Virus record (IMG/VR): IMGVR_UViG_3300048121_001616
Location: 1-27,891 of that record
Strand: one strand, 5' to 3'
Origin: a virus
DNA: 27,891 nt
The notes under the pieces are model-generated. The model was not told the origin of the DNA. It ran no database searches and saw nothing but the letters and a program-made list of their open reading frames with translations. The stretch's first letter is position 1. Each line of letters begins with the position of its first letter. Below, in pieces: positions 4,963 to 27,891 of this stretch. Position numbers and translations under genes: made by a program.

Positions 4963-5182
4963 AGAATTAATAAAGGTTGCAAAAGAACCAATAGTTGATT
5001 CTGATGACGATATATCAGCTGATAGATTAAAAAACGCTGCTGCTACAAAAAAGCTAGCTATATTCGATGCGTTTGAAATACTTGCTAGAATAGAAAACGA
5101 AGAGGACTTGTTGAACGATAAACCTAAAAAAGTAAAAGAAGAAAGAACTTTTAAAGGTTTTGCAGAAGGAAGATCTAAGTAA
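4907..5182 (+). CDS. Putative small terminase subunit (91 aa)
   Basis: The protein is a highly charged helical sequence directly upstream of the large terminase, overlapping its ATG by one base, which is the classic TerS position. The central region, with AGRRAVEELIKVAKE and SADRLKNAAATKKLAIFDAF, reads as helices suitable for oligomerisation and DNA recognition, and the Lys-rich C-terminus (KPKKVKEERTF) could contact TerL. TerS proteins bind the packaging site and stimulate the motor. At 91 residues it is shorter than many TerS proteins, and I cannot show a helix-turn-helix. The only ATG is at 4907, so the gene overlaps the preceding one by 56 bases. Confidence 0.5.
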   Translation: MNTKETKKNIIHAGRRAVEELIKVAKEPIVDSDDDISADRLKNAAATKKLAIFDAFEILARIENEEDLLNDKPKKVKEERTFKGFAEGRSK

Positions 5183-9788: not shown

Positions 9789-9799
9789 TTTTTTTTAAT

Positions 9800-9821
9800 T
9801 ATTTAATTATATTATATTATG
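9800..9821 (+). promoter_or_regulatory. AT-rich leader motif, copy 1, before the scaffold gene
   Basis: The 22 bases ending in the scaffold ATG match 20 of 22 bases with those ending in the ATG at 12533. They contain no Shine-Dalgarno. The conserved run could be a translation-initiation leader of the Bacteroidota type or part of a late promoter. Confidence 0.4.
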
Positions 9822-11009: not shown

Positions 11010-11023
11010 AAAAATTATTTATC

Positions 11024-12454
11024 ATGAGTTTAACTCCTCAATTTGGTAGTATTGTACCTAGTGCAACTCAACAAACTTTAGCTAACAACTATCTAGTATT
11101 TGATGGTGCTGCTGGTGGAAATTTTGCACAACAATATTTACCTGAAATTTACGAACAAGAAGTGGAGCGTTACGGAAACCGTACGTTATCTGGATTCTTA
11201 AGAATGGTTGGCGCTGAAATGCCAATGACTTCTGATCAAGTTATTTGGTCTGAACAAACAAGATTGCACATTGCTTATAAAGATTGTGATCTTCCTGCCG
11301 CAACAACTATCGATGTTAACCCTGGTGCTGCTGCTGATATTACAAATGTAGTATCTATTAATGACACAGTTGTTGTAATGCAACCAAGTACAGGTTTAGA
11401 AGCAAAAGGTATCGTTATTGGTAGCGCTGGTTCTGTATTAACTGTTACTTTGTTTTCAGGTGCAACTTTACAAGGTGTATTTGGAGCTGCTGCTGCTGAT
11501 CTTAAACTATTTGTTTACGGTTCTGCTTATCAAAAAGGAACTGCGCTAACTGAAGCTACAGGTGTTAACGCTAAAAGAGTATCTGTTGATCCTTCTTTTA
11601 AGCAATTTTCTAACTCACCAGTTATTATCAAAAACCAATATGTAATTAATGGTTCTGATATGGCTCAAATAGGTTGGGTTGAAGTTGCCACTGAAGACGG
11701 CGCGTCTGGTTACCTATGGTATTTGAAAGCTGAATCTGAAACTCGTTTACGTTTTGAAGATTACTTAGAAATGGCTTTAGTAGAAGGTGAGCAAAATGCA
11801 AACGCTGGTGGTGGTGATTATCAAACTGATTTGTTACCAGGAACAGAAGGTTTATTTGCTGCTATCGAAGATAGAGGTAATGTAAACGTTGGCTTTACAG
11901 CTGCGGCTGGACTTACTGCTTTTGATGCTATTTTGAAAAACTTAGACACTCAAGGTGCTATTGAAGAAAACATGTTATTTTTGCAAAGACAAACTGCTCT
12001 TGATTTTGATGACATGCTAGCTTCTATTTCTGGTGGCGCTCAAGGTGGTACTGCTTATGGATTATTTGAAAACTCTGAAGAAATGGCTTTAAATCTTGGA
12101 TTTAGCGGTTTCCGTAGAGGATCTTATGATTTCTATAAAACTGATTGGAAATACTTAAACGATGCTTCTACTCGTGGAGCTATCGATGGTGTTAATTCAA
12201 TTGAAGGTGTATTAGTACCTGCTGGAACTTCTACTGTTTACGATCAAATCTTAGGAACTAACATTCGTCGTCCATTCTTGCACGTGCGATACAGAGCTTC
12301 TCAAGGTGATGACCGTCGTATGAAGTCTTGGTTAACTGGTTCTGCCGGTGGTGCTTTCACTTCAACTCTTGATGCTATGGAAGTTAACTTCTTATCAGAA
12401 AGATGTTTAGTAACACAAGCTGCTAACAACTTTGTACTCTTCAAAGGAGTGTAA
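11024..12454 (+). CDS. Major capsid protein (476 aa)
   Basis: The gene order portal, scaffold, this gene, and its length are typical of an HK97-fold major capsid protein. The N-terminus (SLTPQFGSIVPSATQQT) is followed by ARM-like and alpha/beta segments with TLSGFLRMVGAEMPMTSDQ, and a middle Gly/Ala-rich domain at about residues 90-170. The C-terminal half has RPFLHVRYRASQGDDRRMKS and ends SERCLVTQAANNFVLFKG. Codon use differs from the neighbours, with more GCT, GGT, TTC and CGT, as often seen for a highly expressed gene. A long hairpin follows the stop, which could terminate transcription or protect the abundant mRNA. The fold itself cannot be verified from sequence reading alone. Confidence 0.88.
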   Translation: MSLTPQFGSIVPSATQQTLANNYLVFDGAAGGNFAQQYLPEIYEQEVERYGNRTLSGFLRMVGAEMPMTSDQVIWSEQTRLHIAYKDCDLPAATTIDVNPGAAADITNVVSINDTVVVMQPSTGLEAKGIVIGSAGSVLTVTLFSGATLQGVFGAAAADLKLFVYGSAYQKGTALTEATGVNAKRVSVDPSFKQFSNSPVIIKNQYVINGSDMAQIGWVEVATEDGASGYLWYLKAESETRLRFEDYLEMALVEGEQNANAGGGDYQTDLLPGTEGLFAAIEDRGNVNVGFTAAAGLTAFDAILKNLDTQGAIEENMLFLQRQTALDFDDMLASISGGAQGGTAYGLFENSEEMALNLGFSGFRRGSYDFYKTDWKYLNDASTRGAIDGVNSIEGVLVPAGTSTVYDQILGTNIRRPFLHVRYRASQGDDRRMKSWLTGSAGGAFTSTLDAMEVNFLSERCLVTQAANNFVLFKGV

Positions 12455-12460
12455 TTACAC

Positions 12461-12505
12461 AGGTAATGTTTACCCTCGTTAAAATAACGGGGGTAACTGT
12501 TACCT
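12461..12505 (+). terminator. Long hairpin after the major capsid gene
   Basis: The inner stem pairs 12470-12481 with 12485-12496 (12 pairs including one T-G wobble) around a 3-base loop. It is extended by AGGTAA at 12461-12466 pairing with TTACCT at 12500-12505 through one mismatch and two wobbles. The result is a nearly continuous stem of about 21 pairs, seven bases after the capsid stop, followed by TTATTAACTATTTAATTTT. This is a likely terminator or 3'-end mRNA stabiliser. Confidence 0.75.
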
Positions 12506-12513
12506 TTATTAAC

Positions 12514-12535
12514 TATTTAATTTTATTATATCATG
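12514..12535 (+). promoter_or_regulatory. AT-rich leader motif, copy 2, after the capsid hairpin
   Basis: The 22-base sequence ending in the ATG at 12533 is identical at 20 of 22 positions with the leader before the scaffold gene, and it keeps the same spacing to the ATG. It directly follows the capsid hairpin, so a restart promoter or initiation leader is plausible. Confidence 0.4.
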
Positions 12536-13372
12536 GCTAAAAAAGCTCAAGCAGAAGAAACTGTTGAGGTTGCACCTCAGTCAACTGTTGCAAAAAACGC
12601 ACCAGTTCAAACAAAAAAACCACAAACTCCAGCTAAACCAAGTTGGGAAATTAAAGATAGAATTTACTATTTAAAAGGAAATAAAAATCCTTTAACATTA
12701 ACAATACCAAGTAAGCATACGCAAAAACACTCTTTGCTTTATTTTGATAAACAAACTGGAGCTCAAAAAGAAATAAGATACGCTACAAATCAGGTATCTT
12801 GCTTTGTAGACGAGCAAAAAGGCGAAGCTACTCTTGGTCATATTATTTTTCAAGATGGAACATTAAGAGTTCCACAAAACAAACAAAACCTTCAAAAACT
12901 ACTTTCATTATACCACCCATTAAAAGGTAGGTTATATGAAGAGTTTGATGCAGTTGAAGTAGCTGAAGATGAGTTAGATATTTTAGATCTTCAAATAGAT
13001 GCTTTAAATGCTGCTAGAAGTATAGACGTAGATCACGCTGAAGCAATATTAAGAGTGGAGTTAGGATCAAAAGTAAACTCAATGAGTTCAAAAGAGCTAA
13101 GAAGAGATTTACTGCTGTTTGCTAGAAACAATCCTGCTTTGTTTATAAATCTTGCTAATGATGATAATGTTCAATTAAGAAACTTTGCCGTGAGAGCTGC
13201 TGAAGCTGGAATAATTAAGTTATCTCAAGATCAAAGAACATTTACGTGGGGAACAAATGGTAGAAAACTAATGAACGTACCTTTTGATGAAAATCCATAT
13301 TCGGCTTTTGCTGCTTTCTTGAAAACAGACGAAGGAGTTGAAGTCTATAAATCTATAGATAAAAAACTATAA
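12533..13372 (+). CDS. Hypothetical structural-module protein (279 aa)
   Basis: I do not recognise the family. After a low-complexity Ala/Pro/Lys/Gln N-terminus (about 40 residues) comes a beta-rich domain with DRIYYLKGNKNPLTLTIPSK and NQVSCFVDEQKGEATL. A charged helical region (about residues 130-220) then contains NDDNVQLRNFAVRAAEAGII, which has a winged-helix-like look. The C-terminus (RKLMNVPFDENPYSAFAAFL) is compact. It is the only gene between two strong hairpins, suggesting it can be transcribed apart from the capsid gene before it and the connector genes after it. A head-completion or minor capsid role follows from position only. Confidence 0.75.
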   Translation: MAKKAQAEETVEVAPQSTVAKNAPVQTKKPQTPAKPSWEIKDRIYYLKGNKNPLTLTIPSKHTQKHSLLYFDKQTGAQKEIRYATNQVSCFVDEQKGEATLGHIIFQDGTLRVPQNKQNLQKLLSLYHPLKGRLYEEFDAVEVAEDELDILDLQIDALNAARSIDVDHAEAILRVELGSKVNSMSSKELRRDLLLFARNNPALFINLANDDNVQLRNFAVRAAEAGIIKLSQDQRTFTWGTNGRKLMNVPFDENPYSAFAAFLKTDEGVEVYKSIDKKL

Positions 13373-13381
13373 AAACAAGTG

Positions 13382-13418
13382 ATACTAATATAGGCGGTTT
13401 CGGCCGCCTTCTTAGTAT
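13382..13418 (+). terminator. Hairpin terminator before the connector genes
   Basis: ATACTAA at 13382-13388 pairs perfectly with TTAGTAT at 13412-13418. Inside this, AGGCGG at 13392-13397 pairs with CCGCCT at 13404-13409 around a TTTCGG loop. The GC core is conspicuous in this AT-rich genome. It begins ten bases after the stop of the 279-residue gene, and a short T run follows. This is a good rho-independent terminator candidate. Confidence 0.75.
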
Positions 13419-13435
13419 TTATATAAAAATATAAA

Positions 13436-14212
13436 ATGGCAGTAAACGTAAACACAGTATACACAACAGTCTTGTACATATTAAACAAAGAACAAAGAGG
13501 TTATGTAACACCTGCTGAATTTAATAGTATTGCTGATTTAGTACAGAAAGAAATATTTAATTCTTATTTTCCTGATGCTAACCAGCAAAACAGAAAAAAC
13601 CAAAACAACACAGAAAACGATACAGAGTTTTTTAACATGTTTAAAGACATTGCTTACAAGTTGTATCCGTTTGAAAAAGAAATAGCGTTTACGTATGATT
13701 CAGCTAATAATTCTTTTTACAATGCCGCGTCTGATACTATCTACAAAATAGGTGAAGTCATAACAACTTACAATGGCCAACCTAAATATCAGTCTATAAC
13801 TCAATTGGTTAGTAAAAAAGATTTTGACAAAATTACAAGATCAAAACTAACCGCTCCGACAAAACAATATCCTTTATTTATTACAACAAACGCAACACCT
13901 ACTGGTTTAGAAAATCAACTAGCATTGGTTATATCACCATCTCCCACAGCCGCTGATAGCGTTAGTGTCAATTGCATAACAAATCCAACGTCTCCAATAT
14001 GGGGCTATAACATTGGCGCATTAGGACAGTATGAGTTTGTTGACGCTTCAATAGTTGGTTCTACAACTGTTAATTTTCAACTAGACATATCAGAGCAAAC
14101 TAATATAATTATAAATATATTAAAATATTTTGGTGTTGTAATAAATGATCCTACTATAATTGATGTTGCGGCTCAAGAGGCTCAAGCAACTGAAGTAAAT
14201 AAAAAATCTTAA
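13436..14212 (+). CDS. Putative head-tail connector or ring protein (258 aa)
   Basis: The N-terminal region (NVNTVYTTVLYILNKEQRGY then TPAEFNSIADLVQKEIF) is helical, like the helical bundle of phage adaptor proteins that dock under the portal. The central and C-terminal parts are Thr/Asn/Ser-rich and beta-like, with KQYPLFITTNATPTG and a closing NIIINILKYFGVVIN segment. No enzymatic motif is seen. It sits between the hairpin-bounded 279-residue gene and the next connector candidate, four bases from it, in the region where podoviruses encode their head-completion rings. The function is inferred from order and helical/beta character, and I could not match it to a named family. Confidence 0.7.
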   Translation: MAVNVNTVYTTVLYILNKEQRGYVTPAEFNSIADLVQKEIFNSYFPDANQQNRKNQNNTENDTEFFNMFKDIAYKLYPFEKEIAFTYDSANNSFYNAASDTIYKIGEVITTYNGQPKYQSITQLVSKKDFDKITRSKLTAPTKQYPLFITTNATPTGLENQLALVISPSPTAADSVSVNCITNPTSPIWGYNIGALGQYEFVDASIVGSTTVNFQLDISEQTNIIINILKYFGVVINDPTIIDVAAQEAQATEVNKKS

Positions 14213-14216
14213 TTAA

Positions 14217-15443
14217 ATGAGTACAGAAACTAACCAACAATATTATCAAGGCGCACAACCTTTTTTAATTACTGATGTAGCTGGCCAAAGTTCTTTCGTA
14301 ACTACTTTTGATACGGATCTAGTTTTTGGATCATATGATAACACAGAAATAAATTACGCGTTAAATAATTTTAAATTATATACAAGTCCAAGTGGTTTAC
14401 CAGGAAGTTTTACGGAATATACAAGTCAATACGAGGTAAATAACAACACGATATATATAGGTACGCAAGCTGTGCCGATTTTGTTGCCACAAAACACTAT
14501 CGTAGTTGTACAATTAAAAACACTCAGTGGTGGTAACTACGGCAATCAAGATGCTTTTGGTCAAACTGTTGAAGAAAACTATGGCGGTTATGAATACATA
14601 ACATTAAACGATGCTATAGATAATTTTATGGTTGGTTATGTTGGTGACGGTAAAATACTTCAAAAATGTAAAAAATCTGATGTATTATTTTTTGCTAAAA
14701 GATCTTTGCAAGAATTTAGTTATGATACATTAAAAAGTGTACATTCTCAAGAGCTAACAGTTCCAGCTTCATTAAGCATTGTATTGCCTCAAGATTACGT
14801 AAACTACGTTAGAGTTTCGCGTATAGATGAGTTAGGTATAAAAAGAATAATATATCCAGTTAATAATTTAACAATAAATCCTTACAACAATCCTGTTCAA
14901 GACGCGACTGGAGTTCCTACACAAGATAACTTTGGTGAAAATATTGAAGGAACATCTTTGACTGAAGAGCGATTTAAAAAAGCAAATTTAGATTTATTAA
15001 ACTTTAATTTATTAGATAATTTTCAAGACTTTGCTTACTGGTGGAATCTTTATGGTTTTGATGGTAATTTTAATACTGGTAGATTGTATGGCTCTGATCC
15101 ACAGACATCCCAAGTAAACGGTTGGTTTAGCATAAATCATAGAGAAGGTAAAATGTCTTTTTCTAATGATTTAGCAGATAAGCTAATCGTATTAGAATAC
15201 ATATCTGACGGTTTAGCAACTGATCTTGACACTAAAGTTCCAAAGCTAGCAGAAGATGCTCTATATGCTTCTATACTATATAATATAGTCGCTACAAGAT
15301 CTGGCCAACAAGAATATTTGGTACAAAGACTTAAAAAAGATAGAAGCGCTAAATTAAGAAATGCAAAAATTAGATTATCAAATATAAAACTTGATGAGTT
15401 TGTACAAGTTATGCGTGGTAAGTCTAAATGGATAAAACACTAG
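14217..15443 (+). CDS. Putative tail-stabilisation/ring protein with an extra N-terminal domain (408 aa)
   Basis: The core (about residues 120-200) has ITLNDAIDNFMVGYVGDGK, then FFAKRSLQEFSYDTLKS and SLSIVLPQDYVNYVRVSR. I recall this arrangement from connector or stabilisation proteins of Bacteroidota podoviruses and crAss-like phages. The C-terminal part contains HREGKMSFSNDLADKLIVLEYISDG followed by a Lys/Arg-rich helical end. Residues 1-115 form a separate beta-rich domain (for example YEVNNNTIYIG then NTIVVVQLKT) reminiscent of fibre-attachment domains, which may be an added module. The protein probably forms a ring beneath the portal that accepts the nozzle. The next gene begins six bases after its stop. 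Confidence 0.65.
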   Translation: MSTETNQQYYQGAQPFLITDVAGQSSFVTTFDTDLVFGSYDNTEINYALNNFKLYTSPSGLPGSFTEYTSQYEVNNNTIYIGTQAVPILLPQNTIVVVQLKTLSGGNYGNQDAFGQTVEENYGGYEYITLNDAIDNFMVGYVGDGKILQKCKKSDVLFFAKRSLQEFSYDTLKSVHSQELTVPASLSIVLPQDYVNYVRVSRIDELGIKRIIYPVNNLTINPYNNPVQDATGVPTQDNFGENIEGTSLTEERFKKANLDLLNFNLLDNFQDFAYWWNLYGFDGNFNTGRLYGSDPQTSQVNGWFSINHREGKMSFSNDLADKLIVLEYISDGLATDLDTKVPKLAEDALYASILYNIVATRSGQQEYLVQRLKKDRSAKLRNAKIRLSNIKLDEFVQVMRGKSKWIKH

Positions 15444-15449
15444 AATTAA

Positions 15450-18400
15450 ATGGCAGAGATTAAAAATAGTTTCATCAAATCTAAAATGAATAAAGATCTT
15501 GATGATAGATTAATCCCTAATGGTGAATATAGAAACGCTGTTAATGTATCTATAAATAAATCTACTGGAGAAAACGTAGGAACAGCTCAAACTGTTTTAG
15601 GCAATAAGTTTATTGCTTCTATTGATTCACTGCTTGGTAAAACTGACCTTCAATTTGTAGGTGCTTTACCGGATAATACTAATAATATTATATACGCTTT
15701 TCTAACCAACAATATATTAGAACCGTATGTAGCAAATGGATCAGTTGGAAACAATCAAACATACCCTGATAATCAAGACACTTCAACTGGAGGTCCAATA
15801 AGTATCACTGCAGCTGGTAGTACTTATACTACAGAAATAACAGGTGAAACTACAAATATTACAGTTGCTAATGCAGACGCTAATGGTTTAACAGTTGGTA
15901 TAACAGTTGATGGCACAGGTCAAGTAACTAGTGCGACTATAATTAGTTTCGGCGCTGGATACACTGTTGGAGATGTTGTTCAAATAGACGGAGGCAATAA
16001 CGCGGCTAGATTAACTATACAATCTATACTTCCTTCTGATAGCGTTATAGTTTCATACAGTATAGACTCTGGCAATTTAACAACTCTTGTTGACGGTCCT
16101 TTTTTAAATTTTTCTACACTATATCCAATAACTGGTATAAGTCTATTAGAAGAATTATTGTTTTTCACTGACAATAGAAACCAGCCTAGAAAAATAAATA
16201 TAAATAGAGATAGTACATATTACACTACAGAAGATCAAATATCAGTAGCTAAATACTATCCTTATGAAACCATACAGCTCTATCAACCTAGTCAAGCTTC
16301 TAGCGCTGTTTTCGCAACAGCAGATTTATCTTCAGCTGTAAATAATTCTAACATTTTACCTTTAACTAGTACTACAGGATCTGTTCCTTCTAACGGTGAT
16401 GGAGTTGTTGGTACTAATGCAACCTTAGTCAATGCTGGTTTATCATATACAACTGGTTCATATGGAACTACAGGCGGTTTAGGTAGTGGTTTAATTATAA
16501 ATGTAACAAGCGTAGGTGGTAGTGGAGAAATAACAGGTTTTACTATAACTGACCCAGGTAAGGGATATATTAATGGTGAAACAATAACTGTTATTGGTGC
16601 TACAGGAAACAATGCTGCTACTCTACTAGTAAACGTTGTTAACAGTAATACATTTATAATATCAGAAAACTGGCCAACAGACGTTACAGTTAATCAAAAC
16701 TTAACACTTCCATCGGGTACAGCTTTGAGTTTTGTTGATGCTGAGACAACAATGCAAGACGCTATAAGCGAGTATCTACCAGTTGAAGCTAACTCTGATA
16801 TAGATGCTATAACCTCTCCTACAGACTTTAACTTAACATTAGCTAATTATGTCGGTGAAGTAGATGTTGTGGGGTTAAATGTTTTTTTAGAAAACTCTAG
16901 TGGTGATTTTGTAGATACAGGTTCTACAGTTACTGCTTTTAATAAAGTTGTAGCTGCACCAACTCCTTATATACAAATATTATGTACGCCGGGTATAACT
17001 TCTCCAGATTACGTTATTGGTACAAATGTTAAATTAGCTTTAGCAAATCCTTACTTTGACAATATATTTAAAGATAATGCCAACGTAGATTTTTTAGAAG
17101 ATAAATTTGTAAGATTTTCATATAGATTTAGATTTGATGACGGTGAATACTCTTTAATAGCTCCATTTACGCAGCCATGTTTTATACCTAAACAAGATGG
17201 TTATTTTAGAAATACAGAGTTTGGAGCTTCTGACGAAGAGTTAACAGACGAAGAAAAGGCGTATAGAAGTACTGAAGTTGGCTTTATGGAAAATAAAGTT
17301 AATAAAATACTTTTAAATGTTCCTTTACCTTCTTCAGCTGATGACTTAAATAGCGTTTTAAAAGTTGTTGAGTTAGATATACTGTATAAAGAGTCTGATC
17401 AAACAACCATAAAAGTAGTTGAAAGTATACCTCTTGAAAATAACGTTTACGGTGAAAGCCCTTATTATCAATATGAATATGGATCAAAACCTCCATTTAA
17501 AGTTTTACCACAAAAAGAAACAACTAGAGTTTCTGATAAAATACCAGTAAAAGCTGTATCTCAAGAAGTTGTAAGCAATAGAGTTATATATGGTAATTTT
17601 CAAGACAAGCACACGCCACCGAAATTTTTAGATTATACATTAGGCGCTGGCGCTAAAGAAGAAGAATTTTTTATAAGTGACAATGTGGTTAACAATTATA
17701 CTAGCATTGTAGAATATCCTAACGCTGGTTTAAAACAAAATAGAAACTACGAAGTTGGCGTTGTACTATCAGATAAGTTTGGAAGACAATCTACTGTAAT
17801 TTTTTCTAAGTCTAGACTTGGCGGTCAATCTAGTTTTTTAGCTTCTTCTATATTTACACAGTTTAGAAGTTTAGAAGACAATCAAACTAGCTCTAGTAAT
17901 CCAACAAATGGTATACCTTATTTTGATGGAGATTCATTAAAAATACAATTTAATGATTTTGTATCTAGTATAAAAAACCCTACAACAGGAACGCCTGGTT
18001 TATATAATGGTGATCCTAATTCTGCAACCTATAATCCATTAGGTTGGTACTCTTTTAAAATAGTAGTGAAACAAACTGAACAGGAGTATTATAATATTTA
18101 TGTTCCTACAGCAATGGCCGCTTATCCATTAGACAGGGATAAAGAAGTAGATAACACGTCTCATATAGTTTTATATAACGATAATATAAATAAAATACCT
18201 AGAGATTTAACAGAAGTAGGTCCAACCCAAAGAGAGTTTAGAAGTAGCGTTAGATTATTTCCTAAAGTAGCAAACAATCCGCCAACCGCGGCGCCAGGTT
18301 TATTGCTTAATTATCAATATTACACAGGTAGAACACCTGATATAACAACTACAATAGCCACTATAAAAGACTTATTTAATTATGAAGATTTTCCAATAAT

Positions 18401-20111
18401 TACAACTGGGGAATACGTTTTTTATAATTTTGAATATGATACTACAACAGCTGGTCAAGAAAAGTTTCCAGACGCGAGTTCTCTTATAGCTAGAATAAAT
18501 ACAAATAAGCAGTTTGGTGTTCAAGTTCCAACGCCTAGCGGTTTTTATACTGTTGCACCAAAGCTAAACGTGCTAGAAACAGAACCTGTAGTTTCTTTAC
18601 TAGATATATATTATGAAACTTCTACAACCGGTAGAATAGATTTATTAAATAAAGCTATTGATGAAGGACCTCCACCAAATGCTTTCGACAGAATACAAGG
18701 TGGTGCTTGGAAATTAAATGAAGGTATGGAAGGTTTAAATGCTTCGCCTGTAACTGATTTAGATATTGATGTAACAGCTCCTTTCAAACCTGTTAGACTT
18801 GATGGTTCTGACTTTACAAATCCAGCGCAAAACAGTTGTAACTTAATATCTGTAACAAACCAGGTTGGTGGTGGTTCAAACCCTAATACAGAAAATCAAG
18901 AAGGAATTCCTTATTATAACTCTTCAAACGAAGCTTTAGGTATATTTAAAGTTATTCCTACAAACGCAGCAAGTCCAAACGGTTTCTTTAAAATAGTATT
19001 ATGTTTAGACCCGGTTACAACACCCGTTAGTGATGTTCCTGGTTTAGTGGTTACAGATAACATTTTAGACCATACATATACATTTAATTTAGAGTTTGAT
19101 AATCCAGAGTCTGGAGCTCCTTTAATAGATGAAATAACAGGTGTATTAGGTAATATACAGCCAGATCCACCAGTAATTACAATACCTAAAGCAAGCGTAA
19201 CATTATCATGTGGTGGTCCTTTAGTTCTTATAACTAGTTCTACGTTTGATGTAGACGAAGATTACGGTCCTTTGTTTAAGCTAGAATCTGAAAATGGCTC
19301 TTCAACACAAGATTTAGATCAATTAAATTTAGATTTTCAAATACAAAATTTAGCGCAATTTAACACGAGTACTGGAGTTTATGATACTATATCACCAGTT
19401 GGTAAGTTTTTTATAGATTCAAATGCTTCTGGTCCATTATTTTCTCCAGGCAGCGTCGCGGTAAGTGTACCTCAAAATAACACATTGCAGTCTAATGTTG
19501 GTTATAGATTAACAATATTAGTAACTGATGGTGGTGGTCTTCAAAATACTTGTACTGTTTTCTTTGAGTTTTCACAAGCACCTGCAATACTTTGGTGGGC
19601 GCCATCCACTTCGTATGCTTTAATATCTGGTAGTAGTAGTAATTCTCCATCTAGATTTTTTGAAGTTAAGAAAAATTGGACTTGGATTCAAAGCTTTTTT
19701 CCTCCAAGCGCATCGCCCCCTTTTCCTAACAATGGATTTAATAGTAATGTATCTGAAGGCACCGTTAGATTATCAAATGACGCAGACGTTACAATGACAG
19801 CTGAGTTTCGTGCACTTGACAATGACCCACTTAAAAGTGAACTTTTAGGATTAGTAAGAGTGGAACATAGATTTTCTGAAACCAGTAATTTTACTTCTCC
19901 TGATTACACTTTGGTTGTTATTGGAGTTGGAGTAACCACTAACACTTCTCCTACTTATACAGCTTCACCACCTTTTACAATGCCTGCTGGATGGGGTCTT
20001 TCAACTCCGAACAACGCTTATAATGTTCAAACAGAAGTAACTTGTTCTAATATTTTAGGACCTTTTACAGGTAACCCTTACGTACAGTTTTATTTAAAAG
20101 CTTTAGCTTAA
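15450..20111 (+). CDS. Very large tail nozzle/muzzle-like protein (1553 aa)
   Basis: The start, KSKMNKDLDDRLIPNGEYRN followed by NVGTAQTVLGN, is the entry pattern I associate with large tail-nozzle or muzzle proteins of crAss-like and related podoviruses, counterparts of T7 gp12. Residues 223-252 (LYPITGISLLEELLFFTDN, then RNQPRKIN) resemble a blade of such beta-rich proteins. Two copies of a small beta-domain (GAGYTVGD and GKGYINGE, near residues 150-193 and 350-398) are inserted around it. Residues about 1239-1381 look cadherin-like, with GYRLTILVTDGGGLQNTC. The C-terminal 170 residues are another Ser/Pro-rich beta region. The protein likely forms the tail tube end and receptor-contact surface. 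It is followed by a 481-residue gene that may complete it. Confidence 0.75.
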   Translation: MAEIKNSFIKSKMNKDLDDRLIPNGEYRNAVNVSINKSTGENVGTAQTVLGNKFIASIDSLLGKTDLQFVGALPDNTNNIIYAFLTNNILEPYVANGSVGNNQTYPDNQDTSTGGPISITAAGSTYTTEITGETTNITVANADANGLTVGITVDGTGQVTSATIISFGAGYTVGDVVQIDGGNNAARLTIQSILPSDSVIVSYSIDSGNLTTLVDGPFLNFSTLYPITGISLLEELLFFTDNRNQPRKININRDSTYYTTEDQISVAKYYPYETIQLYQPSQASSAVFATADLSSAVNNSNILPLTSTTGSVPSNGDGVVGTNATLVNAGLSYTTGSYGTTGGLGSGLIINVTSVGGSGEITGFTITDPGKGYINGETITVIGATGNNAATLLVNVVNSNTFIISENWPTDVTVNQNLTLPSGTALSFVDAETTMQDAISEYLPVEANSDIDAITSPTDFNLTLANYVGEVDVVGLNVFLENSSGDFVDTGSTVTAFNKVVAAPTPYIQILCTPGITSPDYVIGTNVKLALANPYFDNIFKDNANVDFLEDKFVRFSYRFRFDDGEYSLIAPFTQPCFIPKQDGYFRNTEFGASDEELTDEEKAYRSTEVGFMENKVNKILLNVPLPSSADDLNSVLKVVELDILYKESDQTTIKVVESIPLENNVYGESPYYQYEYGSKPPFKVLPQKETTRVSDKIPVKAVSQEVVSNRVIYGNFQDKHTPPKFLDYTLGAGAKEEEFFISDNVVNNYTSIVEYPNAGLKQNRNYEVGVVLSDKFGRQSTVIFSKSRLGGQSSFLASSIFTQFRSLEDNQTSSSNPTNGIPYFDGDSLKIQFNDFVSSIKNPTTGTPGLYNGDPNSATYNPLGWYSFKIVVKQTEQEYYNIYVPTAMAAYPLDRDKEVDNTSHIVLYNDNINKIPRDLTEVGPTQREFRSSVRLFPKVANNPPTAAPGLLLNYQYYTGRTPDITTTIATIKDLFNYEDFPIITTGEYVFYNFEYDTTTAGQEKFPDASSLIARINTNKQFGVQVPTPSGFYTVAPKLNVLETEPVVSLLDIYYETSTTGRIDLLNKAIDEGPPPNAFDRIQGGAWKLNEGMEGLNASPVTDLDIDVTAPFKPVRLDGSDFTNPAQNSCNLISVTNQVGGGSNPNTENQEGIPYYNSSNEALGIFKVIPTNAASPNGFFKIVLCLDPVTTPVSDVPGLVVTDNILDHTYTFNLEFDNPESGAPLIDEITGVLGNIQPDPPVITIPKASVTLSCGGPLVLITSSTFDVDEDYGPLFKLESENGSSTQDLDQLNLDFQIQNLAQFNTSTGVYDTISPVGKFFIDSNASGPLFSPGSVAVSVPQNNTLQSNVGYRLTILVTDGGGLQNTCTVFFEFSQAPAILWWAPSTSYALISGSSSNSPSRFFEVKKNWTWIQSFFPPSASPPFPNNGFNSNVSEGTVRLSNDADVTMTAEFRALDNDPLKSELLGLVRVEHRFSETSNFTSPDYTLVVIGVGVTTNTSPTYTASPPFTMPAGWGLSTPNNAYNVQTEVTCSNILGPFTGNPYVQFYLKALA
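15888..16028 (+). repeat. Inserted beta-domain, copy 1 (within the nozzle-like gene)
   Basis: This encodes residues 147-193. They share with residues 348-398 the pattern of alternating beta residues, then G-x-GY-x-x-G-(D/E), a short hydrophobic run, and G-NNAA-x-L. The identity is at the protein level and the DNA has diverged. Confidence 0.6.
16491..16643 (+). repeat. Inserted beta-domain, copy 2 (within the nozzle-like gene)
   Basis: This encodes residues 348-398. It matches copy 1 in the GSGEITGFTI, GKGYINGETI and GNNAATLL elements. The spacing between copies is about 200 residues, with the FFTDNRNQPRKIN segment between them. Confidence 0.6.
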
Positions 20112-20149
20112 TAGTAAAATTTATAAAAAAAAAGTAATAATAAAAAAAT

Positions 20150-21595
20150 ATGGCTACTATTTTAGAAGTAAAATACTTTAACAGCTATGTGCTTAAAAAG
20201 ATGCTAGATAACACTTCTGCGACGCCGAGGTGGAATGGCTCTTTTGGTATACCTGAAGATATAGGTGGTTTTCCTAGAACCACAAACATAAATAACGATC
20301 TTAGCTGGATAGTAGAAGAATCAAGAATTAGAGGTGGTTATAACAATACTTCTACTGATTATGGTGTTAGGGCTTATCTAGTTGAATTAGAACCTAACTC
20401 TAGTATTAGATTTAATTCTTTAATATATTCAGGTATATATAACTCTAGAACTGGTGTTAATGAAACTAATGTTTTTAGTGTAGCTGAAGAAATAACTAAA
20501 AGTTTAGATCCAGCTAATGGCTCTATTCAAAAGCTTTATGCAGAAGATACTAACTTGATTATATTTCAAGAATTCAAAGTAAACAAAGCATTGATAGATA
20601 AGGATGCTATATATTCTGCTGAAGGTGGTGGTTTACCGGTTAGCTCACTTAAAACAGTTGTTGGTCAAATTGTTCCATTTGCTGGAAATTTTGGTATAGG
20701 TAAACATCCTGAAAGTTTTGCAGTTTATGGTTATAATAAATACTTTGTAGATCCAAATCAACACTCTGTATTAAGATTAGGTGCTAATGGCATTGAGGAA
20801 ATATCAAATACAGGTATGAACTCTTTCTTTAGAAGTGAAATAATAAACATAGACTCTACTAATTTTGGTAAAGGAAAAATTATAGGTGCTTGGGATATAT
20901 ACAATAAAGAGTATGTTTTATCTTTACAAGCTTCTAATCCTACTTTAGAATTAACATATCCAACTTTATCTTATGATGAAAGAGCTGCGGGTTGGATAAG
21001 CTTCTACAGTTATAAGCCTAGTCAATCATTTAGTATTAGAAATCAACACTATACTACATTTGAAGACAAGTTATATTTACATAATACACCAGATGGTATT
21101 TATAATGAATTTTATGGTGTTTCAACACCTTCATCGGTTGATTTTGTTTTCAACCCAATGCCTAGTAACTCAAAAGTTTTTAATACTGTAAATTACGAAG
21201 GAACTAACGGTTGGCAAGTTAACTCTTTTTCATCAGATGAAACTGGACCTGGAACTTATGTAAGTGCTAATGCTTTTGTAGTTGATACAACAGCGTTGGT
21301 TAGAAGTTACACAGAAGGTGCTTATGACTCAGCTGTACCTCCAAATACTGGATCAGCTGCTGTAATTCAGCCTATATTTAGAGCAGGTTTTGATAGAAAA
21401 GAAAATAAATACTGCGCTAATTTAATAAACAATACACCTGTTTCGCAAGGTGAAATAATATTTGGAGATCAAATATCAGGAATAAAAGGATTTTTTGCAA
21501 ATGTTAAAGTATCAACAGACACAACCACGGATCCACAAGGATTTAAAGAGTTATTTGCAGTTTCATCAAATTATACATTCGCAAGTGGATATTAA
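20150..21595 (+). CDS. Putative second nozzle/beta-propeller component (481 aa)
   Basis: A long beta-rich sequence with ESRIRGGYNNTSTDYGVRAY near residue 60, then LDPANGSIQKLYAEDTNLII, FQEFKVNKALIDKD and YGYNKYFVDPNQHSVLRLG. These read as successive propeller-type blades (hydrophobic strand, turn, Asp/Asn loop). In related phages, as I recall, this set of motifs lies in the same large tail protein as the entry motifs of the 1553-residue gene, so the two may together make one nozzle. There are no catalytic residues. The gene starts after a 38-base A-rich gap, and the next gene starts 18 bases after its stop. Confidence in a tail role is good; the split-gene idea is an inference. Confidence 0.65.
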   Translation: MATILEVKYFNSYVLKKMLDNTSATPRWNGSFGIPEDIGGFPRTTNINNDLSWIVEESRIRGGYNNTSTDYGVRAYLVELEPNSSIRFNSLIYSGIYNSRTGVNETNVFSVAEEITKSLDPANGSIQKLYAEDTNLIIFQEFKVNKALIDKDAIYSAEGGGLPVSSLKTVVGQIVPFAGNFGIGKHPESFAVYGYNKYFVDPNQHSVLRLGANGIEEISNTGMNSFFRSEIINIDSTNFGKGKIIGAWDIYNKEYVLSLQASNPTLELTYPTLSYDERAAGWISFYSYKPSQSFSIRNQHYTTFEDKLYLHNTPDGIYNEFYGVSTPSSVDFVFNPMPSNSKVFNTVNYEGTNGWQVNSFSSDETGPGTYVSANAFVVDTTALVRSYTEGAYDSAVPPNTGSAAVIQPIFRAGFDRKENKYCANLINNTPVSQGEIIFGDQISGIKGFFANVKVSTDTTTDPQGFKELFAVSSNYTFASGY

Positions 21596-21613: not shown

Positions 21614-22327
21614 ATGCCAGCATCATTAATAATAGGAGGCGCCTTAAAAATAGCAGGAGGAATATTTGGTTCTAGAGCTGCAAAGCGTAGAGCTAGAGCG
21701 TTGGCTAGACAGGTTAGACAAGAAACAGCTAAACTAAACTCGCTTGAGTCTAGTAGACAACAAATTATAAACCCCTATAGAGGTGTAGAAGACGTTTCTG
21801 CGTTAGCCAAAGATTTATCTAGTAAAGTTACAAACCCTTTTGCTAATTTAAGTGTAGCTACAAAAGCGGCTGAAATACAAATGGAACAAAGTGATATTGC
21901 CTTGGCAAACACTTTAGATACATTGAGGGCTACTGGCGCTGGCGCAGGTGGCGCAACTGCTCTTGCTCAAGCTGCATTACAAAGTAAGCAAGGTGTTGCT
22001 GCTAGTATTGAAAGTCAAGAAGCTCAAAACGAAAAACTAAGAGCTCAAGGCCAACAACAAATGGAACAAGCTCAATTAGCAGACGCACAAAGAATACAAC
22101 AACTTCAAATATCTGAAGCTGGTAGGGTGCAAGAGTTAACTGGTAGAGGCGAGCAGATTAGACAGCAAATGACGGAGACTAGAGAGCAAGATTCTATAAA
22201 CTACCAAAGAAATAAATTAGCCGCATTAACAGGAGCTAAATCAAAAGCACAAGCAGCGTCATCAAACGCCATGACAAATGCTATTGGAGGTTTAGGGTCT
22301 GCATTAATGGGAATGGGTCAATCATAA
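21614..22327 (+). CDS. Putative internal virion/DNA-ejection protein (237 aa)
   Basis: The N-terminus (PASLIIGGALKIAGGIFGSR, residues 2-21) is a Gly-rich hydrophobic helix suited to inserting in membranes, and a strongly basic stretch follows. Residues 90-190 are Ala/Gln-rich helical sequence (LAQAALQSKQGVAASIESQE and a Gln-rich continuation). The protein ends in another Gly/Met-rich hydrophobic tail (GGLGSALMGMGQS). Two hydrophobic Gly-rich ends flanking a long Ala/Gln helix is the style of podovirus ejection proteins such as T7 gp14-type internal core proteins, which leave the head with DNA and form a channel across the envelope. The neighbouring genes are also of internal-virion type. No homology search was made. 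Confidence 0.7.
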   Translation: MPASLIIGGALKIAGGIFGSRAAKRRARALARQVRQETAKLNSLESSRQQIINPYRGVEDVSALAKDLSSKVTNPFANLSVATKAAEIQMEQSDIALANTLDTLRATGAGAGGATALAQAALQSKQGVAASIESQEAQNEKLRAQGQQQMEQAQLADAQRIQQLQISEAGRVQELTGRGEQIRQQMTETREQDSINYQRNKLAALTGAKSKAQAASSNAMTNAIGGLGSALMGMGQS

Positions 22328-22331
22328 TAAC

Positions 22332-23429
22332 ATGGAGAATAAAAATATAAGTACAAATCTTTTAATAAGACAGCTAAATCAAAGCAACGCGCTTGGTTTT
22401 GACAAGAGATTTATAGCTAGCAATTACGATGTTAACTTTGACATATTAGGTAAAGCATTTAGGCCTACAGGTAAAATATACGCTGCATTAATGATGGCTA
22501 TAGAAAATAACACTTGCACAACAGATAACTGTGAATATGAATATCAGCAGTTAAAAATAATTAAAGAATCACCAACTAATGCTATTGAATTTTTATCTGA
22601 AGTTACATCTCAATTGCAAGTAACAGAAGATTCTAACTTTGATCCTAACAATAATTTTAAATATACTGTAGCAAACTCTATATTGACTGAAAAACCTGGT
22701 TTCTCTAAAACACATGGTTATGATGTAGTTTTAAACTTATTAGAAAACGGGTCTCAAGAACTTATTTTTACAGGACCCTTATTTGAAGAGCCTTTGGTTA
22801 TAAACAGTTCTGCTATAACTATATTAGCAGAAGCTGGCACTAGCATTGTAACTGCTACACCTAATATAAGCGAATTAATGTTAGCTTTGTTACCTCAAAT
22901 AGGTTTATTTGATGCTGAGGATATGCAAGAAAATGGTGAATTAGCACCTACAGCTAAAATATCAGAAGAGTTTGTACTTAAAAATCCTGATGGATCATTT
23001 GACTATGAAATAGTTGACATCGGAAATGGTAAAGGTAGAAACGTACTACAATACGATATGGATAAAATCACTAGAAAAGCTATGCCATTTATTGAAGCTG
23101 AAGTTGCTGGTATATTAGGTCAAGAGCAAGAAGCTGTAGCTCTGTGGAACGTTTATATCGCAAAAGGAACAAGCGTTGCAGAAGATGCTGAAATGGTACA
23201 AAATGCTAATGCAGCATCTGAAAGCTGGAGTTATGAGGAAGATTTACCATTAAGCCAAGACAAAAAAGTTTTATTTGAAAGAAAATACATAAGCTATTTT
23301 ATGAACAATTATTTATCTCAATTTTTAACAAATCAGCTACCTACCGTTGAAGAAGACGCTAGCGTTTTTGATTTAGAAGAAGGCAAAAAGGCCAAAGTAG
23401 AAAAGTTCATGCAAGAAAACAACATTTAA
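22332..23429 (+). CDS. Hypothetical virion-module protein (365 aa)
   Basis: I do not recognise this protein. It is mixed alpha/beta with an acidic second half. Segments include NISTNLLIRQLNQSNALGFD at the start, a middle Ser/Ile/Thr-rich region (SSAITILAEAGTSIVTATPN) and a mostly helical end with WNVYIAKGTS and YISYFMNNYLSQFLTNQL. No Walker, HExxH, Cys cluster or membrane segment is seen. It starts four bases after the ejection-type gene and is followed ten bases later by the giant gene, so it is probably cotranscribed with both and part of the internal or ejection set. A partner role for the giant protein is a guess from order alone. Confidence 0.7.
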   Translation: MENKNISTNLLIRQLNQSNALGFDKRFIASNYDVNFDILGKAFRPTGKIYAALMMAIENNTCTTDNCEYEYQQLKIIKESPTNAIEFLSEVTSQLQVTEDSNFDPNNNFKYTVANSILTEKPGFSKTHGYDVVLNLLENGSQELIFTGPLFEEPLVINSSAITILAEAGTSIVTATPNISELMLALLPQIGLFDAEDMQENGELAPTAKISEEFVLKNPDGSFDYEIVDIGNGKGRNVLQYDMDKITRKAMPFIEAEVAGILGQEQEAVALWNVYIAKGTSVAEDAEMVQNANAASESWSYEEDLPLSQDKKVLFERKYISYFMNNYLSQFLTNQLPTVEEDASVFDLEEGKKAKVEKFMQENNI

Positions 23430-23439
23430 ATTTAATATA

Positions 23440-26400
23440 ATGAATATACAAGAGTGGGAGAAAAATAAAGCAGATTATTTCTTTTCAGTTCAAACGCTAC
23501 CGCAAGAAGAAAGAAAACAAGCTTTACAACAGTGGTTAGCTAGTAATCCTCAGCCTTCAGAACAAGCTGAAGTAGTAGAAGAAGAAGAGGTAAAGACAGA
23601 GGGTGCTGCAACCCAGGAGGATGCAGATGTAGCACCCACCGAACAACCGGAAGCATCCGAGAAAAAAAGTACGGTATCTATTTTCGATCCGCGTTCTTTG
23701 GACTCACTATCACAAGAAGTAGCTAATTTTGGTGCTAGTATAAAATCACAACCTGTAGACAGAGCTGAAGTAATAAATAATTACTTACAAAAAGAATACG
23801 AAGGTGCACCAAAAGCAGGTGAGATTATAGAGGCCAATGACTATCAATATAAATATGAAGCTGACGTAGATGATGAAGGAAATTTAAACTTACAGGTTTT
23901 ATATAAAGGACCTGAAGATGAAGAGTTTATTAACGCTAGTGAAAAAGCTAAAAGTAATCCAAAAAATATAGCTCTTCAAAATGCTGAGGCGTCTATATTG
24001 TCTCAGTTAGGTTTTTTACCAGAGGAAATACAAGAGCAGGCCGTTGCTCAGCTTCAACCTCAGCAAACACAACTTCAAGACTTTGACACGTCAAGAGAAG
24101 GAGTGCAGTCATTTGATGACATGCTTTTTTACAATTATGAGGAAGCTGATAGAGTAAATGATTTAGAAGCTGCAGATAGAAATGTATATATAAGTCAAGA
24201 CAAGGCTTTAAAACAAAGAGAAGTTTTTCAAGATTTACTAAAAGATCCTGATAATAAAAAATTAGTTGAAAGCAAAATAGCTAAAAAAAGAGCTGATTTA
24301 GAAAACAAAATACAGAAACTTGGCGACAAAGATCCTGTTAAACTAAAAGAATACCAAGATCAACTTAGCTCTTTAAATACAGAACAAGGAATACTAGATG
24401 TTATAGGTGAAGGCTCTGTTATAAGCTCTTTTGACAAAGCTCTAAAAGAAATGCTTCCAGATATAGAAAAACAAGCAGCGGAAGCTGCAGCTATAAAACC
24501 TTTTGACGAGGAAACTGGATTAGGTGTTGTAGACGGTGTTTTTGATATACAAGGAAATATAAAATTTAGAACAAACGCTTTAGGTAGAACATACGAAGAG
24601 CAAATGTCTCCTGTATATTTTGAAGATAAAAATTTATTAGAGCAAAAAGCACTTTATGATCAAGCCAAGAAAATATACGCTAAAAGAAATAATGTAGAGC
24701 TAGATACTGTTACATTGGATCAAGCTAGACCAATAGTTGAAGAGCTTTACGCTAAAAAAATATATACTGAAAAAGAGCAAGAATTATTGGAAGGATATTC
24801 TAAGGCAATGCTAGAAATAAACTCTATGGCTGGTGGTCCTAATATTGGCAAACTTGCTTTTGGTTTTAAAGACTTTAAAGATATATTTGGTGACACGTCT
24901 GATGAAAAAAGAATTAAACTAGAAACAGCAGCTAAAAAGCTAGACGTAGCTAAAGATGCTTTAGTTATAGACATTGCAACTCAAGATACTGCAGCTAAAA
25001 ACTTAAAATCATTAGCGCTAGTTAATAGAACTTATTTAAGCGAAGAAGAGGCGGAAAAAGCTAGAAAAGAATTAAATCTAATAAACATAGAAAATAAAGC
25101 TAATTATGATATAGTTCAAAAAAAGCTTGACACTTTAAGTGAAAAACAAAGAACCGCTGATCAAGCAGAGCTTTTTAATAATTTGTATGGTAGAAACTAT
25201 GGATTCGCAACTCAGCTAGCTGGCAATGCCGCAACCTCTACGTTAGATCTTTTTGTTAATGGTTTAACTGAATACGCTACTAGAATGGGCGTAACAGATT
25301 TAATACTAGCTTCAAATCCACTTATAGCAACAGCTAATTTAAATAATAAACTTTCAGGATTACCAACATTTGGCAGAATAAAAGCTGGTGAGTTTATGGG
25401 TGGAGTTGATGACGTTGTTAATTACATAAACAACGAAATGGCATTACCAACTACCATAAATGATAATAAAACAGCTATGGACTGGGCTAGATGGGGTGGT
25501 CAAACCGCTGGTCAACAAATTCCTATATACGCTGTTTTATTTGGAACTGGCGGTGCTGGATTACCTTTAATAGGCATGTCTACTGCTGGTAGCAAGTTTA
25601 GAGAAATGCAGAAAGAAATTGATCTTGGAACTGCTGATTATAATATATTTCAAATGTACGCTGCTGCTCATTTAGTTGGAGCATCTGCTGTAGCCACTGA
25701 ATATGTTACACAAGGAATGCTTAAAAGACTTCAATTTTCTTACCAGAATTTACCAGGTTTTAAGGAAGGTTTCAGTGACTCTATGAAAGGTTTACTAACT
25801 GGAGCTGGTAGATGGGCTAAAGACATGGGTGAAGAAATACCTAGTGAAATGCTAGATAATCTTATAGGTAATATAGGCGACAGATATATACTTGGCAAAA
25901 AAGATGTCAATCTTTTTGATGGCATGAAAGAAACTGCTTTTAGCACTCTTTGGACGGCTGGTGTATTTATTAGAGCTCCACATATTGGCAAACAATTAAT
26001 GGCGCCTTTTACTAGCAAGCAAGCTTTTCAAGTTGTTGGTGAAAACACGGCTAGGGTTAACGAGCTAAACACTGTTTTAACTACAAACAAAAATTTAAGC
26101 CCAGAAGCCATTAATCAAATAAAAAATGAAATAAACCAGCTTTCTACTGAAAACATGAAAGCAATGAAAATAGAGTTTGATCGTCTTGATCAAATGACTG
26201 ATGGTGAAAAGAAAGTTTTATTAGACAATAAAGCTAAAGAATATGAGATTAAAAGAGAAATAAAGTCTATATTAAATGACAGCTCTATAGATCAAAAAAC
26301 AAAAAATGCTTTAATAGAGTCAAAAAACAAGCAACTTTACAGCGTAGGTACATCATCTGCTAATGTGTTGGCTAAGTATGTTCTTGAGGAAAACAAACAA

Positions 26401-27891
26401 AAGAACATGCCTAAAATTGAGCAAGACATTGAAACTGTTAAAAAATTTGCTGGTGAAGATAATGTCACAGTAATAGAGACAGAAGAAGAGTTTGCTGAAA
26501 AAACTGGAAAACCAAAAGACTCTGATGCTTTTATAGATGAGGAAACTGGTCAAATATTTATAAACAAATCTTGGGCAGCTAAAGTTAACGCTGTTACCGC
26601 TGCTAACCACGAGTTATTTCATAAGATTGTTAGAGCTAAAATGAGTTCTGATCCAGCAGCTGCAGTTCAACTCGTTGAAGACTTTAAAAACATTTTAAGT
26701 GATAAAGAACTATCGATAGTGCAAAAACGTATTGATGATAATTATCGTTATGTTAGAGATGAAAACGGCGTAATACAAAAAGACAGCGAAGGTAATCTTA
26801 TAGAAAATGATATATCTGAATATGCTGAAGAGTATTTAACAGCGTACTCTGATGCTATAGGTAAAGGGGAAATAACTTGGTCTGACAATTTAAGTGAAAG
26901 CTTTTTAAGATTAGGTAAAAAAATTATAAATTTTCTTAAAGGTAAAGGCTTTGATCAAATAGAGTTTGAGACTGGTAGAGATGTTTATAACTTTATAAGA
27001 GACTATCAAGCGAATATACAAAAAGGCAAGTTAACTAAAACTGGTCAAAAAATGCTTACTGAATCTGAGCAGTTTATAGCTGATAGAGATAAAAAAGCTC
27101 AAGTTAAAGATGATAAACTATCAATAACTAAAAGAGGTCAGGAGTTTATAGGTCTTACGAAAGAAGGCGTATATAACAATGAAGATTTAGTTAACATTAT
27201 TAACTCTCCATCTTCAAATCAAACTGACAGGTTTGGAGCTATGGATGCTGTAGTTGAAAACAACTGGCCTGTAATTAGTAAAGGTCTTAAGTTTAACCCA
27301 ACAGGTAGCATACCAATGGATGCTGTTAAAACAGCTGTAACAGAGCAAATGCAAGGTATATTTCCAGGTAGAAACAAAGAATTGCTAGCTGATTTTAATG
27401 CTGATACAGCTCAGGTTAACACATATCTTGGATCTTTAATGCGTCAACGTCAAGCTGAGATATTAGAAAGAGCTAAACAAATAGGTGGTGTAACACAAGA
27501 AGGTACTAGTATCGACTCAGAAGCTGCTAGACAAGTTGTTGCTAAAGCTCCAACTACAACAACCACAAAAGAAGCTAAAGTGGCTAAAAAACCTACAGAA
27601 ACTGTAGAGTTTTCACAAGTGCAAGTAGAAAAAATAAATGCTAAAGATAAAGCCGAAGTTGAAGCAAGAATAACAGAAGCTACAACAAAAGCTTTTGAAG
27701 GCAAAGACATAACTAGATACGGCGAAACTAGAAACGTACCAAAAGCTGTTGCTGATATATATGCTAATATGTTTGGTTTAAATCCTCAAACTATAACTGA
27801 TAAAACTAGAAATTATCAGAAAACAGACTCCGAGGGGTTGACAACGGCTAAACAGTTTTTACTTAAAAACGCCGCTAATGACTTTGCTAGA
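23440..27891 (+). CDS. Giant internal-virion/polyvalent-type protein with embedded zincin (partial, at least 1484 aa)
   Basis: An open frame runs from ATG at 23440 to the window end without a stop, so the C-terminus is missing. In order: a helical N-terminus with QQWLASNPQP; an acidic linker at about residues 45-85; long Lys/Glu helical segments at about 260-350 and 470-580; a Gly-rich hydrophobic stretch at about 690-720 (IPIYAVLFGTGGAGLPLIG) that could enter a membrane; and a metallopeptidase motif HELFH at 1057-1061 in AANHELFHKIVRAK, with a candidate third ligand among E1127/E1130/E1131 in SEYAEEYL. The visible C-terminal part contains RNYQKTDSEGLTTAKQFLL. Giant last-in-module proteins with helices and enzymatic domains are typical of ejected internal proteins and of phage polyvalent proteins. 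The precise role is inferred. Confidence 0.75.
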   Translation, partial: MNIQEWEKNKADYFFSVQTLPQEERKQALQQWLASNPQPSEQAEVVEEEEVKTEGAATQEDADVAPTEQPEASEKKSTVSIFDPRSLDSLSQEVANFGASIKSQPVDRAEVINNYLQKEYEGAPKAGEIIEANDYQYKYEADVDDEGNLNLQVLYKGPEDEEFINASEKAKSNPKNIALQNAEASILSQLGFLPEEIQEQAVAQLQPQQTQLQDFDTSREGVQSFDDMLFYNYEEADRVNDLEAADRNVYISQDKALKQREVFQDLLKDPDNKKLVESKIAKKRADLENKIQKLGDKDPVKLKEYQDQLSSLNTEQGILDVIGEGSVISSFDKALKEMLPDIEKQAAEAAAIKPFDEETGLGVVDGVFDIQGNIKFRTNALGRTYEEQMSPVYFEDKNLLEQKALYDQAKKIYAKRNNVELDTVTLDQARPIVEELYAKKIYTEKEQELLEGYSKAMLEINSMAGGPNIGKLAFGFKDFKDIFGDTSDEKRIKLETAAKKLDVAKDALVIDIATQDTAAKNLKSLALVNRTYLSEEEAEKARKELNLINIENKANYDIVQKKLDTLSEKQRTADQAELFNNLYGRNYGFATQLAGNAATSTLDLFVNGLTEYATRMGVTDLILASNPLIATANLNNKLSGLPTFGRIKAGEFMGGVDDVVNYINNEMALPTTINDNKTAMDWARWGGQTAGQQIPIYAVLFGTGGAGLPLIGMSTAGSKFREMQKEIDLGTADYNIFQMYAAAHLVGASAVATEYVTQGMLKRLQFSYQNLPGFKEGFSDSMKGLLTGAGRWAKDMGEEIPSEMLDNLIGNIGDRYILGKKDVNLFDGMKETAFSTLWTAGVFIRAPHIGKQLMAPFTSKQAFQVVGENTARVNELNTVLTTNKNLSPEAINQIKNEINQLSTENMKAMKIEFDRLDQMTDGEKKVLLDNKAKEYEIKREIKSILNDSSIDQKTKNALIESKNKQLYSVGTSSANVLAKYVLEENKQKNMPKIEQDIETVKKFAGEDNVTVIETEEEFAEKTGKPKDSDAFIDEETGQIFINKSWAAKVNAVTAANHELFHKIVRAKMSSDPAAAVQLVEDFKNILSDKELSIVQKRIDDNYRYVRDENGVIQKDSEGNLIENDISEYAEEYLTAYSDAIGKGEITWSDNLSESFLRLGKKIINFLKGKGFDQIEFETGRDVYNFIRDYQANIQKGKLTKTGQKMLTESEQFIADRDKKAQVKDDKLSITKRGQEFIGLTKEGVYNNEDLVNIINSPSSNQTDRFGAMDAVVENNWPVISKGLKFNPTGSIPMDAVKTAVTEQMQGIFPGRNKELLADFNADTAQVNTYLGSLMRQRQAEILERAKQIGGVTQEGTSIDSEAARQVVAKAPTTTTTKEAKVAKKPTETVEFSQVQVEKINAKDKAEVEARITEATTKAFEGKDITRYGETRNVPKAVADIYANMFGLNPQTITDKTRNYQKTDSEGLTTAKQFLLKNAANDFAR

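Follow-up and report, generated by a model that had tools for sequence, protein, structure and literature searches.

The gene that ends the 27,891-base viral contig IMGVR_UViG_3300048121_001616 (the whole contig is called the window below) encodes the front part of a giant virion-module protein, and residues 991-1199 of this protein (26410..27036, plus strand) very likely form a zincin-like metallopeptidase domain. The gene lies at 23440..27891 on the plus strand, starts with ATG and remains open for 1484 codons up to the contig end, where it is truncated, so that the window holds its 5' half. The best overall explanation, which we consider moderately probable, is an ejected cargo protein of the polyvalent type, with self-processing as the most likely task of its zincin.

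The domain was recognized by the motif HELFH at residues 1057-1061 (26608..26622, plus strand), which presumably supplies two zinc ligands and a general base. It is the sole HExxH in the frame, and shuffling the 1484 amino acids, which include 4 His, produced any HExxH in only 0.06% of trials. The scan of a viral collection with a ten-sequence alignment yielded 122 relatives, from which 80 loci were kept, and all 80 have a single HExxH in one giant frame. In the alignment used to assess conservation (77 non-redundant sequences, identity down to 23%, mean column identity 31%), H1057, E1058, H1061 and E1131 are invariant (77/77). The cluster of glutamates noticed in a preliminary description of this DNA is present as described, with E1127, E1130 and E1131 at 66, 69 and 70 residues after H1061. 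All three had been named as possible third ligands; E1131, in the pair E1130-E1131 (26827..26832, plus strand), stands as the best candidate, E1130 is Glu in 74/77 and Asp in 3/77 sequences, and E1127 is excluded by its lack of conservation.

Two patterns were used in the scan, and neither contained the HExxH. One of them did contain Glu-Glu, and the count for this pair is therefore biased. Among the 45 loci that matched only the glutamate-free pattern, the HExxH was found in 45/45 and E1131 in 40/40 columns read, the other five being duplicates. The expectation that homologs keep the two histidines and the glutamate thus held both in the 77 sequences and in the loci retrieved by the glutamate-free pattern. 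The C-terminal end of the domain is marked by the conserved element GRDVYNFIRDY (residues 1179-1189; 26974..27006, plus strand), in which F1185 is invariant in 77/77 sequences. For the zincin domain, which is under purifying selection, a comparison of the window with the two relatives nearest to it gave a ratio of nonsynonymous to synonymous substitution rates (dN/dS) of about 0.07.

The AlphaFold2 model of the domain, built from 77 sequences (predicted local distance difference test, pLDDT, 85; predicted template modelling score, pTM, 0.75) has secondary structure elements in the order H2-14, E19-22, E40-42, E49-52, H64-80 and H139-151, with further helices between them. HELFH falls in helix 64-80, preceded by the three short strands, and E1130/E1131 fall in the later conserved helix 139-151. 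The earlier proposal that HELFH lies in an active-site helix is upheld to the extent that both the motif and the glutamate pair are helical, judged by secondary structure only. The modelled layout of strands and helices appears zincin-like, with E1131 as the predicted third ligand, and it fits the core of the polyvalent-protein metallopeptidase (MPTase) domains of Iyer et al. 2017, which comprises a three-stranded sheet, an N-terminal helix and two C-terminal helices carrying the HExxH and then a Glu. A model made from only ten sequences had a pLDDT of 79, and no usable result came from it or from searching the PDB with it. In BFVD, every match with a probability of at least 0.84 was a viral protein of 791 residues or more; the elemoC structural protein of Elemovirus (E 4e-3) and one protein annotated with a large-polyvalent-protein domain were among them. 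The Foldseek list for the PDB included one small metallopeptidase, the minigluzincin jannalysin (4jix), at a non-significant rank 48 (E 5.5, probability 0.10).

Sequence searches of Pfam, NCBIfam and the PDB assigned no zincin, and MPTase-PolyVal (PF18818) gave no match above the curated cut-off in ten members of the family, in P0001 or in seven cultured relatives. By tblastn, two family zincins had no match among phage records. A scan of a genome collection returned only two contigs of metagenome-assembled genomes (MAGs), of which one belongs to a MAG of Flavobacteriaceae, and scans with single zincin regions of phages N4 and Gundel retrieved only those same phages. In profile comparisons of the family with single sequences, hhalign scored Elemovirus gp21 at 95%, Gundel gp074 at 53% and one site of MW202828 at 34%, with controls from unrelated regions at 0.1-0.4%. 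Zincin-like MPTase domains of phage polyvalent proteins have been divided into 12 clades, with the virion RNA polymerase of N4 as an example (Iyer et al. 2017; PMC5512222). A nine-sequence N4-type alignment matched our family at 73.3% over only 57 columns, against 0.14% for a reversed control, and with an E-value of 3e-5 that, like those of all these single pairwise comparisons, is not a database E-value. The HExxH and the preceding strand are in register in the alignment with the N4 virion RNA polymerase profile. Both proteins are giant, multi-domain phage proteins in which strands precede the helix with the HExxH and a conserved Glu sits on another helix further on; the window family differs from the N4 type in having no recognised RNA polymerase domain, no PF18818 match and a C-terminal element of its own, GRDVYNFIKDY (at the position of residues 1179-1189).

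A cultured counterpart is gp21 of the Elemovirus Flavobacterium phage vB_FspP_elemoA_7-9A (3,694 amino acids), which is likewise the last gene of the virion module and combines a homologous core (hhalign 97.4%) with a zincin that scores 26.9 bits with the hidden Markov model (HMM) of the family and has the Glu-Glu pair aligned. It differs in that its core is only about 25% identical, its zincin is located at residue 1543, and neither of the two downstream domains of the family, HAD and C-terminal, was detected. The motif together with the profile links makes the zincin assignment very likely, and the placement of the HExxH in a helix also supports it. A tie to the polyvalent-protein metallopeptidases, which the preliminary description had suspected as well, is likely from these alignments. 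As a separate observation, the 3,859-residue giant of MW202828 (L010, 741-12320) has two HEFGH motifs, at residues 1615 and 2500, and only the second aligns at the family HExxH.

We used longer relatives to assess what lies beyond the window end. The first relative search gave six related contigs, and four relatives have a stop codon after the zincin, at lengths of 2,326 (L004), 2,953 (L006), 3,011 (L007) and 3,117 (L002) residues. In L004 the stop codon comes early and a second frame of 668 amino acids lies behind it, and this giant may therefore be split; the full-length relatives measure about 2,950-3,120 amino acids. The L002 protein (P0002) is 72% identical to the window giant and is probably a guide to the content of its missing half. 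Enzymatic domains found in relatives past the point where the window stops are a HAD-type domain with the motif FDFDDT and a P-loop kinase (PF13671, E 2.8e-15 in P0002). The domain order zincin, HAD-type, C-terminal domain is kept in 62/62 long giants, with HAD detected in 47/62 and the C-terminal domain in 54/62. In L002 (P0002, about residues 2015-2400), L029, L040-L042 and L103 the HAD domain (FDFDDTL) carries the P-loop kinase (AAA_33/zeta toxin/PNK-like) as an insertion about 39 residues past the first HAD motif, whereas L006 and L007 lack this kinase.

Identity to the nearest relatives varies strongly along the chain. Residues 231-560 of the window protein are about 30% identical to L002 and L003, the zincin alone is 94-97% identical, and the zincin with the next 285 residues has 90-97% identity to the two relatives nearest to the window. 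This mosaic suggests modular (cassette) exchange. A Pfam search of the window gave PF18510 ('Nuclease domain') at E 0.009 only, below the cut-off. A sigma-70 region 2 at about residues 1316-1345 was considered and found unsupported: a comparison with sigma factors of a flavobacterial MAG gave the expected alignment but a probability of 1.4%, lower than the 3.0% of the control.

The N-terminal part of the protein links the giant to a recorded virion protein. Its core, residues 571-981 (25150..26382, plus strand), is homologous to residues 176-557 of gp123 of Cellulophaga phage phi18:3 (hhalign 98.4%; blastp E 3e-17 with P0002 as query), is common also to parts of Elemovirus gp21 and of the phi19:3, phi38:1 and Gundel giants, and is overlapped by a phrog_22602 match at residues 666-1042 (E 1.1e-14). 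The Gly-rich hydrophobic stretch that the preliminary description saw as a possible membrane-entry segment does exist about 340-365 residues upstream of HELFH, at residues 692-718 (25513..25593, plus strand). The usual cut-off for the mean Kyte-Doolittle value of a transmembrane helix is about 1.6, and the segment peaks just under it (1.49 over 19 residues); it is therefore a borderline candidate for a membrane helix. Weaker hydrophobic segments occur at about 588-635, 735-757 and 832-850.

The record of phi18:3 (Pachyviridae) annotates gp123 as a virion protein from tandem mass spectrometry proteomics. Like the window giant, gp123 is found at the module end; it differs in having no HExxH, no HAD and no matching C-terminal domain. 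Since gp123 has no HExxH, packaging of the zincin part is something that we infer and consider probable. Elemovirus gp21, with both core and zincin, is labelled 'structural protein'; we did not find the experimental basis of this label. In Maribacter phage Panino (L016, 229-5718) the giant at the same place contains a tRNA methyltransferase-type domain (phrog_4752, E 1.7e-16) and no HExxH.

The location of the giant gene in a virion module, also suggested before, is supported by its upstream genes, all on the plus strand. A packaging and head-tail module at 5182..15443 encodes the terminase large subunit, portal, a capsid-type protein and other virion structural proteins (phrog_6681, 6547, 13704, 14543 and 13977), which assigns the giant gene to the virion module. 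It is followed by two large virion genes of 1553 and 481 amino acids (15450..21595; phrog_14478), in the second of which the muzzle C-terminal domain of Crassvirales was recognised (PF25729, E 1.2e-13), and by two smaller genes of 237 and 365 amino acids (21614..23429) between muzzle and giant. Among the 80 family loci, a homolog of the 237-residue gene precedes the giant in 76, a muzzle-like gene in 66 and a homolog of the 365-residue gene in 27.

In the mechanism that we propose, the window gene would be the front half of a polyvalent-type cargo protein of about 3,000 residues from a short-tailed phage of Bacteroidota. The giant would be produced at the same time as the virion proteins and enter the particle, and on infection it would leave before the DNA or together with it. 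Within residues 991-1199, zinc would be held by H1057, H1061 and probably E1131, with E1058 as the general base. The most probable task of the peptidase would be to cut the giant chain itself, at packing or after ejection, and thereby to free downstream effector parts, for example the HAD phosphatase-like domain of the relatives. Metal binding, proteolytic activity, packaging of the zincin and self-cleavage are the steps that we infer here. The roles proposed for MPTase domains include autoprocessing before packing, processing after injection, and attack on host proteins (Iyer et al. 2017; PMC5512222). Each giant has one zincin, which in every case precedes the HAD and C-terminal parts, as would be expected of a processing enzyme in a multi-domain chain. 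We give self-processing about an even chance of being the job of this zincin, and regard it as no less probable than action on a host protein. Several observations weigh against the proposal. Phage N4 packages its virion RNA polymerase, a protein with a related domain, without processing it (PMC5512222). No solved zincin structure in the PDB was matched significantly by profile or by Foldseek, the core was detected by HMM in only 17/79 zincin giants, and HAD was not detected in 15/62 long giants. Finally, the HExxH is absent from phi18:3 gp123 and its allies in phi19:3, phi38:1 and Panino, which means that packaging of the core does not depend on a zincin.

Among the alternatives, the most serious one, which we nevertheless rate as rather unlikely, is that of an injected effector: soon after infection the zincin would cut a host protein, for which components of defence, of the envelope or of transcription come into question, and the rest of the giant would be its delivery vehicle. 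The position of the gene in a virion/ejection module agrees with this, such a role is among those put forward by Iyer et al. (PMC5512222), and the strong variation of other giant parts (about 30% identity at 231-560 versus 94-97% in the zincin) resembles cassette exchange. What speaks against an effector is that the zincin is found in every retrieved giant, in fixed order and under strong constraint, unlike a come-and-go arms-race effector, with the reservation that retrieval used the zincin domain itself and absence in sister lineages is thus under-counted. The peptidase could instead be a maturation or entry protease that acts during ejection on other virion proteins or the host envelope and not on its own chain. 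The adjoining tail/muzzle and small virion-module genes are conserved with the giant, in agreement with this; phi18:3, phi19:3 and phi38:1, however, have core-bearing giants and virion modules but no HExxH giant, and we regard such a role as improbable.

Two further explanations deny the protein any peptidase activity. The zincin fold might be retained as a structural or metal-binding element, in line with the non-significant Foldseek match to solved peptidases, but E1058 is invariant in 77/77 sequences and a general base would serve no purpose in a zinc site with a structural role only, which leaves this explanation very improbable. A chance origin of the HExxH, in a structural protein that is long and mostly helical, is hardly credible, given its 0.06% frequency in shuffled sequences and the fact that all 77 aligned sequences, at identities as low as 23%, keep it.

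The remaining content of the window is informative about the phage and its host. The nearest annotated terminase is that of the unclassified Podoviridae sp. ctfjg026 (MW202828; 64% identity), followed by those of Elemovirus at 44%, of the Maribacter phage Panino at 41%, and of phages of Cellulophaga or Tenacibaculum at 31-39%. Where these relatives have been cultured, their hosts are Flavobacteriaceae, and the host of the window phage probably belongs to the marine Flavobacteria. When the window was examined for Crassvirales domains, the muzzle domain PF25729 was above its cut-off and Crass_capsid (PF23898, E 0.056) below it. The muzzle-type protein seems to be split over the two genes of 1553 and 481 amino acids, with the crAss_MUZ_C domain in the second. 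Near the other end of the window, a second, small HExxH protein of 102 amino acids (2563-2871) has HEKIH and a later WEAEAY, with weak similarity to metallopeptidase families (DUF6782, E 0.013), and a likely holin (GTA_holin_3TM, E 3.1e-5, right at the cut-off) is encoded at 2871-3272.

The cargo proteins gp45-gp47 of phi-crAss001 share with the window the order of muzzle, two smaller genes and giant. We found no significant homology between the giant as a whole and the crAss001 cargo proteins, and the two small genes before the giant had no significant match to crAss001 gp45/gp46 or to the phi18:3, phi38:1 and elemo counterparts. The gp47 protein was found in phi-crAss001 virions by mass spectrometry (PMC10172136). 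It has HEAFH at residue 2157 (L129, 21120-28145), and HEA[FW]H is kept in eight Crassvirales-type sequences, Steigviridae and Suoliviridae among them. Most of the gp47 relatives L131-L137 are labelled RNA-polymerase subunit or hypothetical. The putative zincin of gp47 is only weakly similar to that of the window family, with hhalign giving 25%. A protease in gp47 is not mentioned in the crAss papers that we searched, a set outside of which the subscription papers lie.

The giant thus fits a known class of phage polyvalent proteins, while its protease family has no entry in the standard databases. The first predictions of metallopeptidases within giant proteins of phages date from 2017, and these enzymes may cut the chain that carries them, virion proteins or targets in the host. 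The family described here offers a compact (about 210 amino acids) and deeply conserved domain with defined predicted catalytic residues, and for one relative, Elemovirus, a cultured phage-host pair exists, with Flavobacterium sp. BAL314 as the host. Should the HExxH in gp47 of crAss001 be of the same kind, the question of the substrate would extend to the most abundant gut phages.

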